DNA from: Ditibartonella choladocola
GTDB taxonomy: Bacteria > Pseudomonadota > Alphaproteobacteria > Rhizobiales > Rhizobiaceae
Direction of reading: 5' to 3'
Assembly (NCBI RefSeq): GCF_002007565.1
Contig: NZ_CP015625.1
Location: 248,001 to 312,000 of the forward strand
DNA: 64,000 nt
Part shown: piece by piece, positions 49,417 to 54,875 of the stretch
Layout: each line of letters opens with the position of its first letter
How positions within the stretch are numbered: the stretch's first letter is position 1
Position numbers and translations under genes: made by a program
The notes under the pieces: generated by a model
Told to the model about the DNA's origin: nothing
Database searches by the model: none
The model's input: the letters and a program-made list of their open reading frames with translations, nothing else

Positions 49417-49444
49417 AACCTTGGAATGTTTATTCCAAGGTTTA
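49417..49444 (+). terminator. Hairpin terminator of gcrA
   Basis: Perfect 11-bp stem AACCTTGGAAT/ATTCCAAGGTT, loop GTTT, then a T-rich tail, about 40 bases past the gcrA stop. Confidence 0.85.
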
Positions 49445-49533
49445 TTTATTTATTAGAAAAAATAAACTGTATTTTCTTCAAATTTAATAATCGGTTTTAT
49501 AACCTCCAGATCTCTCCAAAAGGAAGATCAAAA

Positions 49534-50640
49534 GTGAATAAAATTGATTCAATCGCGAGCTATGATGCTCCGCATTCTTGCAGCCGTGAATGGCTGAAAA
49601 AAGCAATAGAAATCATCGAGGCGGAAATAAACCGCTCGGCCGATACCCATCTCATCCGTTATGATTTGCCAGCGTCATGCGGGATAACGCTTTATTTGAA
49701 AGATGAATCCTGTCATCCGACGGGTAGTTTGAAACACCGTTTGGCGCGTTCGCTTTTCCTTTACTCGCTCTGCAATGGTAAAATCGGGCCGAAGACAACG
49801 ATTGTCGAGGCTTCGAGCGGTTCAACGGCTGTTTCGGAAGCCTATTTTGCCAAACTGATCGGCGTTCCTTTTGTGACAGTTATTCCGAGGACGACATCTC
49901 CCCAAAAAGTCGCTGCCATAGAAGCTTATGGCGGCCGTGTCCATTTTATCGACGATCCGAAGTCGGTTTATGTGACAGCACAAAACCTCGCTGATGAATT
50001 GGGGGGCTATTATATCGACCAGTTCACTTTTGCCGAACGGGCAACCGATTGGCGTGGCAACAATAATATTGCCGATTCAATTTTCTGCCAGATGGCGAAA
50101 GAACCGCATCCCGTTCCGGAGTGGATAATTGCAAGTGCCGGTACCGGTGGAACATCGGCAACCTTGGGACGATATATCCGGTATCGCAAATTTTCAACGA
50201 GACTTTGCGTGGCCGATCCGGAAGCTTCGGTTTTTCACCTTCACTATGCCGATCGTTCTATAAAGGAAATAGATTGTTGCCGTTCGGTTATCGAAGGAAT
50301 TGGACGCGCACGTGTCGAGCCGTCTTTTATGCCGGATGTGATAGACCGCATGATTTCGGTTCCCGATCAGGCAAGTCTTGCAGCAATGCGTGTGATAAGT
50401 CGTCTCATCGGTCGCAGTTGCGGCGGCTCTACCGGAACAAACGTTTATGCGGCCGCAGAACTCATTTCCGATATGATTAAAAATCACCAACATGGCTCAC
50501 TCGTGACATTGATTTGCGATAGTGGTGAACGTTACCGTTCGACCTATCTTGACGATCAATGGTTGGGAAAAAGAGGATTTGATATTTCCGGTGATATGAA
50601 ACGTCTGGAGAGGCTGTTTCTGGAAGCAAAGCCTTTCTGA
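49534..50640 (+). CDS. PLP-dependent cysteine-synthase-family protein (possible L-cysteine desulfhydrase)
   Basis: Fold-type II PLP enzyme of 368 residues. Seen: PLP lysine at about 67 in HPTGSLKHRLA; the substrate/phosphate loop VEASSGSTAVSEAYFA; GTGGTSATLGRYIR, which binds the PLP phosphate; and SGERYRSTYL near the C-terminus. It resembles the Cds1/CysK2-like branch of cysteine synthase relatives, some of which degrade cysteine to pyruvate and H2S, rather than biosynthetic CysK, whose lysine motif differs. The start is GTG 49534 with AAGGAAG at the proper distance; the frame reaches an ATG at 49426 inside the gcrA terminator, which is not credible. Substrate unproven. Confidence 0.82.
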   Translation: MNKIDSIASYDAPHSCSREWLKKAIEIIEAEINRSADTHLIRYDLPASCGITLYLKDESCHPTGSLKHRLARSLFLYSLCNGKIGPKTTIVEASSGSTAVSEAYFAKLIGVPFVTVIPRTTSPQKVAAIEAYGGRVHFIDDPKSVYVTAQNLADELGGYYIDQFTFAERATDWRGNNNIADSIFCQMAKEPHPVPEWIIASAGTGGTSATLGRYIRYRKFSTRLCVADPEASVFHLHYADRSIKEIDCCRSVIEGIGRARVEPSFMPDVIDRMISVPDQASLAAMRVISRLIGRSCGGSTGTNVYAAAELISDMIKNHQHGSLVTLICDSGERYRSTYLDDQWLGKRGFDISGDMKRLERLFLEAKPF

Positions 50641-51159: not shown

Positions 51160-51771
51160 CTAGTTTCCGTTATTGTTGACCGAACTGACAACAATATCAT
51201 CACGCTGTTCAATGCTTACCCATTTTCCGGGCGATTGGGTCGATTGGCGCTTCAGATAAGTATATTCGGTATCTTTCCAGTTGAAGACTTCGTCATGCAG
51301 ATTATCGAGTATAAAATCGCCCCGATCGGTTCGCACGGTTAGAACCGCATGGCCTTCGCCATCAGGTTTACGCACAACAGTAATAAGCAAGCTTGCAAGC
51401 GGAATGCCTTTGTCACGCAGTTCTTTCTGCTTTTCCAGAACATAGTCTTCGCAATCACCGGCATTTACCGGATAAGTCCAATATTCTTCCTTGCCATAAA
51501 GTTCCATGTCTGTAGCAGGAGTAATGCGGGCGTTAACACTGTGGTTGACGTCAATCAACATATCCCAGACATTTTGTGTCAATTTTACCGGTTGGAGTAC
51601 AGTGTTGCGTATTTTACATTCACGGGGCAAACGCTCGCAAAATTCATAATGGCCGATAGGTTGTGAAGTCTGTCCGGTGACAATCATAAATTCGCTAGCA
51701 GCTTTTGCAGCAGTGGTCAGGCCGACGAGTGCCATAAACACCACCCCTAATATTCTGAACGCAAACACCAT
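51160..51771 (-). CDS. Bacterial transglutaminase-like cysteine peptidase (BTLCP, peptidase family C93)
   Basis: 203-residue predicted periplasmic cysteine peptidase of the BTLCP family, which is conserved in proteobacteria but poorly characterised. Seen: a signal peptide (residues 1-24, cut near AKAAS); the catalytic triad in family positions, Cys107 in AGDCEDYVLEKQ, His141 in GEGHAVLTV, and Asp156 in FILDNLHDEV; and a C-terminal WVSIEQRDD. Two further cysteines (45 and 52) could form a disulfide. It is divergent from the GNAT-C39/RimK operon across a 360-base region, so joint function is possible but unproved. Confidence 0.88.
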   Translation of the reverse strand: MVFAFRILGVVFMALVGLTTAAKAASEFMIVTGQTSQPIGHYEFCERLPRECKIRNTVLQPVKLTQNVWDMLIDVNHSVNARITPATDMELYGKEEYWTYPVNAGDCEDYVLEKQKELRDKGIPLASLLITVVRKPDGEGHAVLTVRTDRGDFILDNLHDEVFNWKDTEYTYLKRQSTQSPGKWVSIEQRDDIVVSSVNNNGN

Positions 51772-52131
51772 TTTTCTACTCGATTTAACCTGTCACGATA
51801 AAGATCGTTAACAAAAGGTTAAAGTCCAACTTTGGTTTCCAGTCAATGACCGGAATGCAACACTTGTTTAAGATTTAAATTATGGTTAAAAAATAAAAAC
51901 AATATTTTTCAATGTGTTAGCGTTTTATTATGGTTAATGCAACAAGATCGGACAGTCGCAATGACGTGATTTGTCGATTTTCAGAAAAACCATGGGGGCA
52001 CTTTGCGACATTTTTGAAAAAGCCGGAATATAACCTTATTCAAGTGCAAAAAATCACTTATATGAACTATGTTATATCTGATAGATAGAAGGCAGTTAGA
52101 TAGCAGGCATTCGGAAATCGAGAGTATGTGA
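51772..52131. promoter_or_regulatory. Divergent promoter region, BTLCP / GNAT-C39 operon
   Basis: 360 AT-rich bases without a gene. It must hold both promoters; no specific operator was recognised. Confidence 0.4.
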
Positions 52132-53232
52132 ATGGGCGAATTGATAAAACGCAAAGCAACAGTAAATGATATAGATGCGTTGGTTGCTATTGAAGAGGCA
52201 TGTTTTGACAGCGACAGAATTTCGCGGCGTTCCTTCCGTACTTTGATTGATCGTCCGACGGCCAGAACAATTGTTGCCGAACTTGATGGAACAATTATCG
52301 GCTATGCAATGATTTTGTTTCGTAAAGGCACGGCACTTGCGCGCCTTTACTCGCTTGCGGTCAAGCCGGTAGAAAAAATAAAAGGCGTCGGCTCTCAACT
52401 ATTGGATGCAGCAGAGCAGGCGGCTTTTGATGAAGGGCGCATTTATATGCGCCTTGAAGTTCGCGAAGACAATGAACGGGCAATTCGTCTTTATGAACGC
52501 TTTCACTATCGACCGATCGGCCGTTATCTTGATTATTATGCCGATCATGCACCAGCCCTGCGTTATGAAAAAACCTTGCGCGGTGATACACCGGTTGAAA
52601 CGTCTGTTCCCTATTATCAACAAACATCGGAATTTACTTGCGGTGCTGCCTGTTTGATGATGGCACTCAAATATTTCAATCCGCAATCACGCCTTGATCC
52701 TGTTTTCGAGCTTAGACTATGGCGGGGTGCGACAACGGTTTTCATGCTTTCGGGGCCGGGGGGATGCGAGCCGTTCGGGCTTGCCGTTCTTGCACATAAT
52801 TATGGTCTCAAACCCACTATCATCGTGACAAGCTACGAATTTTTGTTTATCAATTCGGTGCGGGATCGCAAGAAACGCGAGATAATGGAAATTGCACAGA
52901 CCGATTTTCGCGAGCAGGCTGATGCAGCCCACATTCCGGTGCGGATTGCTGCTTTTACTCTTGATGATATTCGTGCCGCGCTTGCACGCGGGGCGTTGGT
53001 GCTTGTGCTTATCAGTTTCTACCATATGTTCGGGGAAAAAATTCCCCATTGGGTATTGGTTCATGGTGATGACGGAAGTCATTTTCTTATTCATGACCCG
53101 TGGGTGGAGGAAGACGAAGGTGAAACAATTGCCGATTCTGCAAACCTGCCTTTGAATTATGAAGTATTCGATCATATTGCGCGCTTTGGAAAAGACGGTT
53201 TGCGCGCAGCCGTCATATTGGAGAAAAGCTAG
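52132..53232 (+). CDS. GNAT acetyltransferase fused to a C39-like papain-fold peptidase
   Basis: 366-residue two-domain protein. Residues 1-150: GNAT N-acyltransferase domain with the acetyl-CoA loop VKPVEKIKGVGSQLLDAA (about 77-94) and NERAIRLYERFHYRPIGR. Residues about 155-366: peptidase C39-like domain with Cys170 in QQTSEFTCGAACLMMALKY, His306 in IPHWVLVHG and Asp322 in LIHDPWVEED, an intact papain-type triad. This fusion is known next to RimK-type ATP-grasp ligases carrying the RLAN domain, and has been predicted to take part in synthesis or removal of peptide modifications; products are unknown. The RimK-like gene follows after six bases, so they are one operon. No signal peptide, so cytosolic. 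Confidence 0.88.
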   Translation: MGELIKRKATVNDIDALVAIEEACFDSDRISRRSFRTLIDRPTARTIVAELDGTIIGYAMILFRKGTALARLYSLAVKPVEKIKGVGSQLLDAAEQAAFDEGRIYMRLEVREDNERAIRLYERFHYRPIGRYLDYYADHAPALRYEKTLRGDTPVETSVPYYQQTSEFTCGAACLMMALKYFNPQSRLDPVFELRLWRGATTVFMLSGPGGCEPFGLAVLAHNYGLKPTIIVTSYEFLFINSVRDRKKREIMEIAQTDFREQADAAHIPVRIAAFTLDDIRAALARGALVLVLISFYHMFGEKIPHWVLVHGDDGSHFLIHDPWVEEDEGETIADSANLPLNYEVFDHIARFGKDGLRAAVILEKS

Positions 53233-53238
53233 TTTTCT

Positions 53239-54714
53239 ATGACTATTTGTGTAATTCTTGCTGGACGAGTGTCTGACGTTGATAATGGTGCGACGACGCA
53301 CAAAGTCATGACACATCGTGACTATTTGGCCAATCCTGCGCTATTTGCCGGTCAACGTCCCCGTATTATCAACCTGTCACGTTCTTACCGCTATCAAAGC
53401 CGCGCTTATTATTGTTCGCTGCTTGCCGAAGCGCGCGGCCATCGTGTGTTGCCCTCGGTCGAAACCATGATCGACCTGTCGGAACGACGGTTATATAAAA
53501 AATCCATTCCCGAACTTGAAGATTGTCTCAACAAAGCCCTGAAAGGAGACGGTACGCGCGCACCGGAAATCATCAGGGTATTTTTTGGTATTGCCGATAG
53601 TTCAGATGACATAAAGGGTGACCGTTTTGAAAAATTCGGCCACCTTTTGTTTGACTGGTATCGGGCTCCGGCATTGGAAGTTCACGTTATACCGGGTGAA
53701 TGGGCACGCATTCATAAAATATGTTTTGCCAATTGGCAAAAGCTTGAAGGTGATAGCCGCGATGCTTTCTATAAGGCGATGGAAACTTATACAACACGGG
53801 CCTGGAAAGAAGCCCGCCACAAAGTTCCGCCGCGTTGGACATTTGCAGTTTTATGCAATCCGGAAGAAGAGTTGCCGCCGACAAACGTTGCCGATTTGAA
53901 ACATTGGGCAAAAATTGCTGCCCGCCTTGGTGTGGAAGTCGAACCGATCGGTGCAAGAGACCTTGCCCGTCTTGCCAATTTTGATGCGCTTTTCATTCGC
54001 GAAACAACCAATATATCCAATCACACCTATCGTTTTGCCCGTCGCGCGGAGCAGGAAAATATGCCGGTTATCGACGACCCGATGTCGATGATCAGGTGTA
54101 CGAACAAAGTCTATCTTGACGAGTTGATGCGCGCAAACGGTGTGCCGGTTCCCCCCACCGTGATGATCGGTGGCAATGATGATCTCGTCAGAGCGGCAGA
54201 TACGCTCGGCTTCCCGATGGTGTTGAAAATTCCGGATTCGTCATTTTCACGCGGGGTGAAACGCGTTGGCTCGATGGAAGAATTGCGCCGCCTTGCCCAT
54301 GAATGGCTTAAAGATAGCGATCTTTTACTGGCACAAAAATATTTACCGACCAAATTCGATTGGCGTGTCGGTGTATTGGGTGGCAAGCCGCTTTTTGTTT
54401 GCCAATATGAAATGGCACCCCACCATTGGCAAATCATCAAACACGATCCGAACGGTGGCGAACCGCTGGAAGGTGGTTTCAAAACCTATGCTATTCCCGA
54501 TGCTCCGCCGGCAGTCGTCGAAATCGGGTTGAAGGCGGCCCGTTGTATCGGTGATGGCCTTTACGGTGTTGATATTAAAGAAACCGATGAAGGTATTGTG
54601 GTCATTGAAGTGAACGACAACCCCAATATCGAACATGGTGTCGAGGATCTGGCCGAAAAAGACGATGTCTGGATCAACCTCACACGCTGGTTTATCGAGC
54701 GCCTCGAACGTTGA
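53239..54714 (+). CDS. RimK-like ATP-grasp ligase with N-terminal RLAN domain
   Basis: 491-residue predicted amide-bond ligase. N-terminal part (about 35-190) matches the RimK-like ATP-grasp N-terminal (RLAN) domain: RPRIINLSRSYRYQSRAYYC, LLAEARGHRVLPSVETMIDL. The C-terminal ATP-grasp domain (about 285-490) shows MVLKIPDSSFSRGVKRV near 329 (ATP lysine and loop), FDWRVGVLGG, GVDIKE and IEVNDNPNIEHGVED near 460 (Mg ligands). Such enzymes join an amino acid or peptide to a carboxylate via acyl phosphate; the acceptor is unknown. It pairs with the GNAT-C39 gene. The start ATG has only a weak ribosome site, consistent with coupling to the upstream gene. Its stop codon lies inside the first unit of a 19-bp tandem repeat. 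Confidence 0.87.
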   Translation: MTICVILAGRVSDVDNGATTHKVMTHRDYLANPALFAGQRPRIINLSRSYRYQSRAYYCSLLAEARGHRVLPSVETMIDLSERRLYKKSIPELEDCLNKALKGDGTRAPEIIRVFFGIADSSDDIKGDRFEKFGHLLFDWYRAPALEVHVIPGEWARIHKICFANWQKLEGDSRDAFYKAMETYTTRAWKEARHKVPPRWTFAVLCNPEEELPPTNVADLKHWAKIAARLGVEVEPIGARDLARLANFDALFIRETTNISNHTYRFARRAEQENMPVIDDPMSMIRCTNKVYLDELMRANGVPVPPTVMIGGNDDLVRAADTLGFPMVLKIPDSSFSRGVKRVGSMEELRRLAHEWLKDSDLLLAQKYLPTKFDWRVGVLGGKPLFVCQYEMAPHHWQIIKHDPNGGEPLEGGFKTYAIPDAPPAVVEIGLKAARCIGDGLYGVDIKETDEGIVVIEVNDNPNIEHGVEDLAEKDDVWINLTRWFIERLER

Positions 54715-54838
54715 ACTAAAGGATGAACGTTGATTTGAAGGATGAACGCTGATTTGAAGGATGAACGTTGATTAAAAGTTCTAACGTTGTCTAAAAGCTC
54801 GAACGGCGATTAAAAGGCATAACGTTGATTTAAAGGCC
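54706..54838 (+). repeat. 19-bp tandem repeat, seven units, starting at the RimK-like stop codon
   Basis: Units begin at 54706, 54725, 54744, 54763, 54782, 54801 and 54820, exactly 19 bases apart, with consensus near (G/T)AACGTTGATTTAAAGGAT. The first unit contains the last codons and stop of the ligase gene (GAACGTTGA = Glu-Arg-stop). Nineteen is not a multiple of three, so the array is non-coding; each unit has the AACGTT palindrome or a close variant. No spacers, so it is not CRISPR. Confidence 0.92.
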
Positions 54839-54849
54839 TTAAAGAGAAA

Positions 54850-54875
54850 AACCGGCAATGGGTTGCCGGTTTTTT
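54850..54875 (+). terminator. Rho-independent terminator of the GNAT-C39/RimK operon
   Basis: 9-bp stem AACCGGCAA/TTGCCGGTT, loop TGGG, then T-run, directly after the tandem repeat. Confidence 0.92.

Follow-up and report, generated by a model that had tools for sequence, protein, structure and literature searches.

Gene pairs encoding an RLAN-RimK ligase and a GNAT-peptidase were reportedly noted in comparative genomics by Iyer et al. in 2009. Among the closest described systems is the pathway of N-acetylglutaminylglutamine amide (NAGGN), whose enzyme Ngg contains an ATP-grasp part. Ngg couples N-acetylation with peptide-bond formation (PMC8070244, excerpt). In the RimABK system, RimK and RimB act on RpsF (PMC11957791, excerpt). 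We analysed a pair of the first kind in a window of 64,000 nucleotides, meaning the whole stretch of DNA under study, from the 2.9 Mb genome of Ditibartonella choladocola (NZ_CP015625.1, positions 248,001–312,000). The pair consists of a gene for a GNAT domain fused to a C39-like (DUF3335) peptidase domain and a gene for an RLAN-RimK ATP-grasp ligase; its neighbour encodes a transglutaminase-like cysteine peptidase (BTLCP). Together, ligase and GNAT-peptidase form a real, widespread and conserved pair with intact active sites, and the pair belongs to an already known, uncharacterised kind. A search of the openly licensed literature, with subscription papers outside its scope, returned no paper on the function of RLAN or DUF3335.

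The fusion gene (52132–53232, + strand) and the ligase gene (53239–54714, + strand, 491 amino acids) are separated by 6 bases, and the BTLCP gene (51160–51771, − strand) diverges from them at a distance of 360 bases, all as placed in an earlier reading of the sequence alone (the preliminary description). The fusion gene was assigned with Pfam, catalytic columns, an AlphaFold model and structure matches, the ligase gene with Pfam, invariant residues and an AlphaFold model. Co-occurrence was surveyed in 349 evenly drawn pseudomonadotan genomes, to which 14 control genomes were added. RLAN was present in 62 of the 349 genomes and DUF3335 in 52, with 51 genomes containing both (Fisher p about 4e-49, uncorrected for kinship). 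At 49 of 55 places DUF3335 lay within 4 kb of RLAN (28 upstream on the same strand, 16 divergent, 4 downstream on the same strand and 1 in another arrangement). Neighbourhoods were compared in 140 loci, comprising 80 named loci and 60 of the survey's 65 RLAN places. A GNAT domain was found at most 1.5 kb from the ligase in 138 of them, and of the remaining two, L153 is cut by its contig end before the GNAT position and L120 has none. One locus (L169:5065–7065) encoded a GNAT-RLAN-ATP-grasp fusion protein beside a separate GNAT-C39 gene. The ligase and the GNAT-peptidase had been proposed to form a set, and this view holds: they are a conserved pair, and their active sites are intact.

Two other settings for the pair were rejected. 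For an anti-phage defence system, none of the three proteins matched PADLOC-DB anti-phage defence systems at E 0.01 and the ligase matched none of 50,697 phage records at E 1e-30. For a plasmid-borne system, 11 of 72,556 plasmid records matched the ligase (E 1e-30), 7 of them being Azospirillum. Within the genus (G000–G036), the ligase was found in 8 of 37 genomes, all of at least 2.2 Mb, and 8 other genomes of that size were without it; our guess is that its absence reflects loss in reduced lineages. Extra DUF3335 copies were located away from any RLAN match in two survey genomes (G255:C15:30144–40372 and G331:C39:240274–240885).

The N-terminal RLAN domain of the ligase (53317–53775, + strand) was identified with Pfam (PF14401, 128.5 bits, cut-off 25) and by its invariant residues, and a RimK-like ATP-grasp match was also obtained (33 bits, cut-off 21). 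In all 141 ligase sequences, i.e. the 140 loci and the window's own, K290, K330, R376, D445, E457 and N459 were invariant, as were N45, Y57 and R66 of the RLAN domain. A degenerate active site across the family, which the preliminary description had named as a potential objection, was therefore not observed. Because its three residues are invariant, the RLAN domain is likely a substrate-binding domain. The conserved active-site columns align with those of RimK, LysX and RimI, and we take the conserved ligase, C39 and GNAT residues to have the corresponding catalytic roles. The AlphaFold model of the ligase had a predicted local distance difference test (pLDDT) score of 82.8, and the nearest structures of the ligase module were LysX, ArgX and RimK, which extend protein C-termini. 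The ligase scored 76.2 bits against the NCBIfam model rimK_fam, under the cut-off of 143.4. The active-site residues of RimK are R211, H215 and R216 (PMC10092738, excerpt), and these were unmatched in the hidden Markov model alignment of the ligase, which is gapped in that region. In the R2K.3 clade of ATP-grasp enzymes, the ExN of the last strand is replaced by ExGD (PMC4431377, excerpt); the ligase falls outside this clade, with E457-x-N459 in 141 of 141 sequences, though it scored 31.6 bits against PF14243 (cut-off 26.3). An origin of RLAN by duplication of the pre-ATP-grasp domain in the same ligase was discarded at an hhalign probability of only 0.5 percent.

The fusion protein comprises a GNAT domain (residues about 1–150; 52132–52581, + strand; PF00583, 67.6 bits in the Pfam profile search) and a C39-like papain-fold domain (residues 159–363; 52606–53220, + strand; PF11814, 257.8 bits, cut-off 25). 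Fusions of DUF3335 to GNAT domains are frequent (PMC10318531, excerpt). The AlphaFold model had a pLDDT of 86.8; the whole-chain structure searches for the pair were filled by matches to the ATP-grasp and GNAT domains. Q164, C170 and H306 of the C39 domain were kept in 112 of 112 aligned C39-bearing sequences, and position 322 carried Asp in 99 of them and Glu in the other 13; the Cys170/His306/Asp322 triad reported earlier is intact. The GNAT domain is of the RimI/Ard1 type, with the fold and the LEVR-x-x-N...Y motif columns both present. E109 and N114 occurred in 139 of 139 aligned sequences and Y121 in 137 of 139, Y135-Y136 is a further RimI-like column pair, and the motif columns align with those of the bS18-alanine N-acetyltransferase 9mto. 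The nearest structures of this part were RimI and Ard1, which acetylate protein N-termini. The domain scored 70.7 bits against the RimI model TIGR01575, under the cut-off of 86.4, which a separate locus in the same genome (C1:322099) passed with 95.6 bits.

The C39 domain appears to be separable from the rest. GNAT was fused to C39 in 111 of the 140 loci and stood beside the ligase without C39 in 27. Across the 139 labelled rows (L153 and L120, which has no GNAT, were excluded), the ligase tree required 13 or more changes of the C39 state, compared with a mean of 25 and a minimum of 22 in 300 shuffles, and the GNAT tree only 4. The GNAT-only loci likewise fell into 14 groups on the ligase tree and 4 on the GNAT tree. 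Both were quick trees built without a mixture model, and the GNAT alignment was short. Given 13 changes on one tree and 4 on the other, simple in-place loss of C39 was rejected; two GNAT forms that were exchanged or differentially lost fit better than repeated trimming. In one genus (code g123), the three genomes with matches each had two ligases, of which one stood with GNAT-C39 and the other with a GNAT lacking C39. For at least 5 of the 27 GNAT-only loci (L122, L124, L126, L159 and L174), a DUF3335 protein was found elsewhere in the genome, in a check that covered the GNAT-only loci other than the 11 named ones; this weighs against a clean split into core and optional parts. Since ligase lineages switch between GNAT partners that have C39 and partners that lack it, acetylation seems to be near-always coupled to ligation, and hydrolysis optional. 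Judged from sequence, the core of the system looks like the ligase plus GNAT, with C39 as an optional part.

Gene adjacency, co-occurrence, domain types and the invariance of the catalytic residues were observed directly. We propose that the pair assembles a short peptide with an N-acetyl cap and recycles it, probably without BTLCP, and assign this reading a probability of roughly 0.45. The ligase would activate a carboxylate with ATP and then add an amino acid, following the chemistry of LysX, ArgX and RimK. The GNAT domain would acetylate the alpha-amine of the ligase product or of its precursor, and the C39 domain, where present, would serve as an eraser or recycling hydrolase. The product may be a small N-acetyl peptide of the cytoplasm, on the model of the NAGGN pathway with its trio of GNAT, ATP-grasp and peptidase. 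We lean slightly towards a small peptide because the GNAT domain is near-always coupled to the ligase and no recurring target gene was seen. The preliminary description had put forward a comparable scheme of ligation, acetylation and hydrolysis, which appears reasonable given the conserved pair and its intact sites, but the C39 step in it is not obligatory.

Several observations weigh against this proposal. The enzymes structurally closest to the GNAT domain and the ligase have protein termini as their substrates (RimI/Ard1; RimK; LysX/ArgX on LysW), an equal or better match for a protein tag. At 6 of the 55 places DUF3335 was not beside RLAN: both families were present but apart in G251 and G066, three were extra copies in G331 and G255, and G068 had DUF3335 only. 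Besides the 27 loci with GNAT alone, 11 of the 62 RLAN genomes were without any DUF3335 match. The ligase of L120 had no nearby GNAT, and a Pseudomonas plasmid copy outside the 140-locus count (L184) had none annotated in its neighbourhood. Of the 14 control genomes, Methanosarcina acetivorans was the only one with DUF3335, and none had RLAN.

The strongest alternative is reversible protein tagging in the manner of RimABK, with the ligase extending the C-terminus of a housekeeping protein, C39 trimming the extension and GNAT acetylating an N-terminus or the tag. We consider this possible, though doubtful. It agrees with the structural relatives named above, of which RimK, LysX and ArgX work on protein C-termini and RimI/Ard1 on protein N-termini, and a rough clustering of neighbours showed no recurrent small-molecule pathway gene beside the pair. 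Glutamates added by RimK are taken off again by RimB, and the two also occur as a RimB-RimK hybrid (PMC11957791, excerpt). The ligase, however, missed the RimK family cut-off, and R211, H215 and R216 found no match in its gapped alignment. Of the 60 phylum-survey loci, 13 had, at most five genes from the ligase, a member of a cluster represented by DUF155/RMND1, which we take to be linked to translation, but 11 of these 13 loci come from one family. Clusters of DUF155 and of DUF2817 (14 loci) at this distance were observed mainly in the family coded f54 and also in f55 and f56 (L137–L162, not all, and L166, L174 and L175), with identities taken from scanned cluster representatives. These neighbours are a weak hint at translation and a further hydrolase.

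It is improbable that the C39-like domain is an acyl- or peptidyl-transferase that passes the ligated peptide to a final acceptor. BtrH and phytochelatin synthase, which would be its models, are among the papain-like relatives (PMC10318531, excerpt). The domain also keeps all of Q, C, H and D/E, but it is dispensable, and the rough clustering showed no gene for an acceptor or carrier recurring around the pair. ATP-grasp ligases and C39 peptidases both serve ribosomal-peptide systems, yet a graspetide-like system, with the ligase cyclising a precursor and C39 removing its leader, is very unlikely here: the Pfam scan found no transporter domain in the GNAT-C39 protein, and of the clusters formed by 4540 small open reading frames around the 140 loci, the 12 widest, inspected by eye, looked like low-complexity or shadow frames with no credible precursor peptide.

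BTLCP had also been counted as a member of the system, as a periplasmic peptidase acting on the pair's product. The protein matched Peptidase_C93 (234.3 bits), and Cys107, His141 and Asp156 and a hydrophobic, signal-like N-terminus were present as described. Its distribution is different from that of the pair. In a family survey of 247 genomes, BTLCP was near-universal without the pair (237 genomes, compared with 98 containing RLAN). Among 61 relatives, 32 genomes, representing 24 of 25 genera, contained it, and 12 genomes gave strong ligase matches (E<1e-160). In four relatives from the order that have the ligase, BTLCP was on a different contig. The same-genus genomes contained BTLCP in 9 of 37 cases. 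Linkage to the pair was seen in 10 of the 140 loci, all of them named, namely Bartonella, Brucella/Ochrobactrum and one Rhizobiales isolate; these constitute a single clade (support 100) and a single change on the 141-row ligase tree. Unlinked BTLCP homologues in related genomes, which the preliminary description held would remove BTLCP from the system, were found in most relatives examined, with Brucella/Ochrobactrum loci as the exception.

For a three-gene system speaks the long retention of the divergent BTLCP gene in Bartonella and Brucella/Ochrobactrum: of the window's other flanking genes that were searched for, none was found in Brucella-type loci, where the BTLCP linkage persists. In addition, among the places listed in the family survey, at least 7 further genomes of the 98 with RLAN (genus codes g222, g254 and g274; picked by eye, with computed gaps, and not on the tree) had BTLCP at most 3.2 kb from RLAN. 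Promoter motifs point in the opposite direction. The CtrA-box motif TTAA-N7-TTAA occurred 5 times in the window (2.0 expected; 5 of 100 shuffles reached this number), and two of the five are upstream of BTLCP, about 37 bp (51808–51822) and about 104 bp (51875–51889) from its start, with no strand assigned. The motif alone is not rare enough, so that the weight comes from position and conservation. At least one upstream box was present in 11 of 11 cases, the ten clade loci and the same-genus genome G003, which has BTLCP and no ligase match; of the 19 other homologues from the order, 3 had such a box. The second box occurred in 6 of 7 Brucella/Ochrobactrum-type loci and was absent in L038–L040. 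CtrA boxes have been described, as has CtrA at the promoters of HvyA-like BTLCP genes in Sinorhizobium (PMC4241560, excerpt). On the distribution, tree and promoter evidence BTLCP was rejected as a member. It likely stands outside the pair's system and likely belongs to a separate, putatively cell-cycle-controlled one, which makes a three-gene system highly improbable.

Of the named records that share the locus, the closest were Bartonella, namely a metagenome-assembled genome (L038, 100% ligase identity) and Bartonella sp. M0177 (L039, 99%). Several Mesorhizobium strains also have the pair. A hairpin with a T-run 3' of the ligase gene (54846–54875, + strand), found in the terminator scan, is a likely candidate for the terminator that closes the two-gene unit, and the hairpin was also present in L038–L040. 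The scan found 6 terminators in the window and a mean of 5.2 in shuffles, i.e. the total was not above shuffles. A 19-bp tandem repeat (54706–54836, 6.9 copies) extends from the last ligase codons up to the hairpin; shorter versions were seen by eye in three other Bartonella (L038–L040). A PALP enzyme gene (49426–50640) adjoins gcrA and scored 550 bits against the model of the L-cysteine desulfhydrase Cds1 (cut-off 600).

If the pair works as proposed, a metabolite or protein tag common among bacteria awaits discovery. The minimal unit for testing would be the ligase plus GNAT, with C39 as a separable step and BTLCP dispensable from the test.

Compared with known systems, BTLCP resembles the HvyA type of Caulobacter in its Cys/His/Asp triad and upstream CtrA-box motifs, and differs from LapG, whose model (NF045674) it matched with 47.7 bits, under the cut-off of 320. 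The GNAT domain shares fold and motif columns with RimI and Ard1. Unlike RimI, it missed the RimI cut-off, which the other locus in the genome passes. As in RimABK, a RimK-fold ligase has a partner protease, and ligase and partner can fuse (PMC11957791, excerpt). Unlike in RimABK, where RimB is an aspartic protease, the partner here is a C39-like cysteine domain, GNAT is near-always present and the RimK cut-off was missed. With the NAGGN pathway (Ngg, AsnO and a peptidase), the pair shares the combination of GNAT, ATP-grasp and peptidase. In contrast to Ngg, it matched TIGR03103 with only 33.1 bits (cut-off 569), through the GNAT part alone, and its ligase has an RLAN domain. We tentatively suggest, as an idea that is rather unlikely to hold, a widespread write-cap-erase peptide module in which the ligase is near-obligately joined by a RimI-type GNAT, the C39 eraser is gained, lost or exchanged, and the acetylated peptide or tag is unlike those of NAGGN and RimABK. 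The pair has the same domains and the same pairing as that reportedly noted by Iyer et al. 2009; to this are added the optional C39 domain, the change of partner forms between ligase lineages, the RimI type of the GNAT domain and the likely exclusion of BTLCP.

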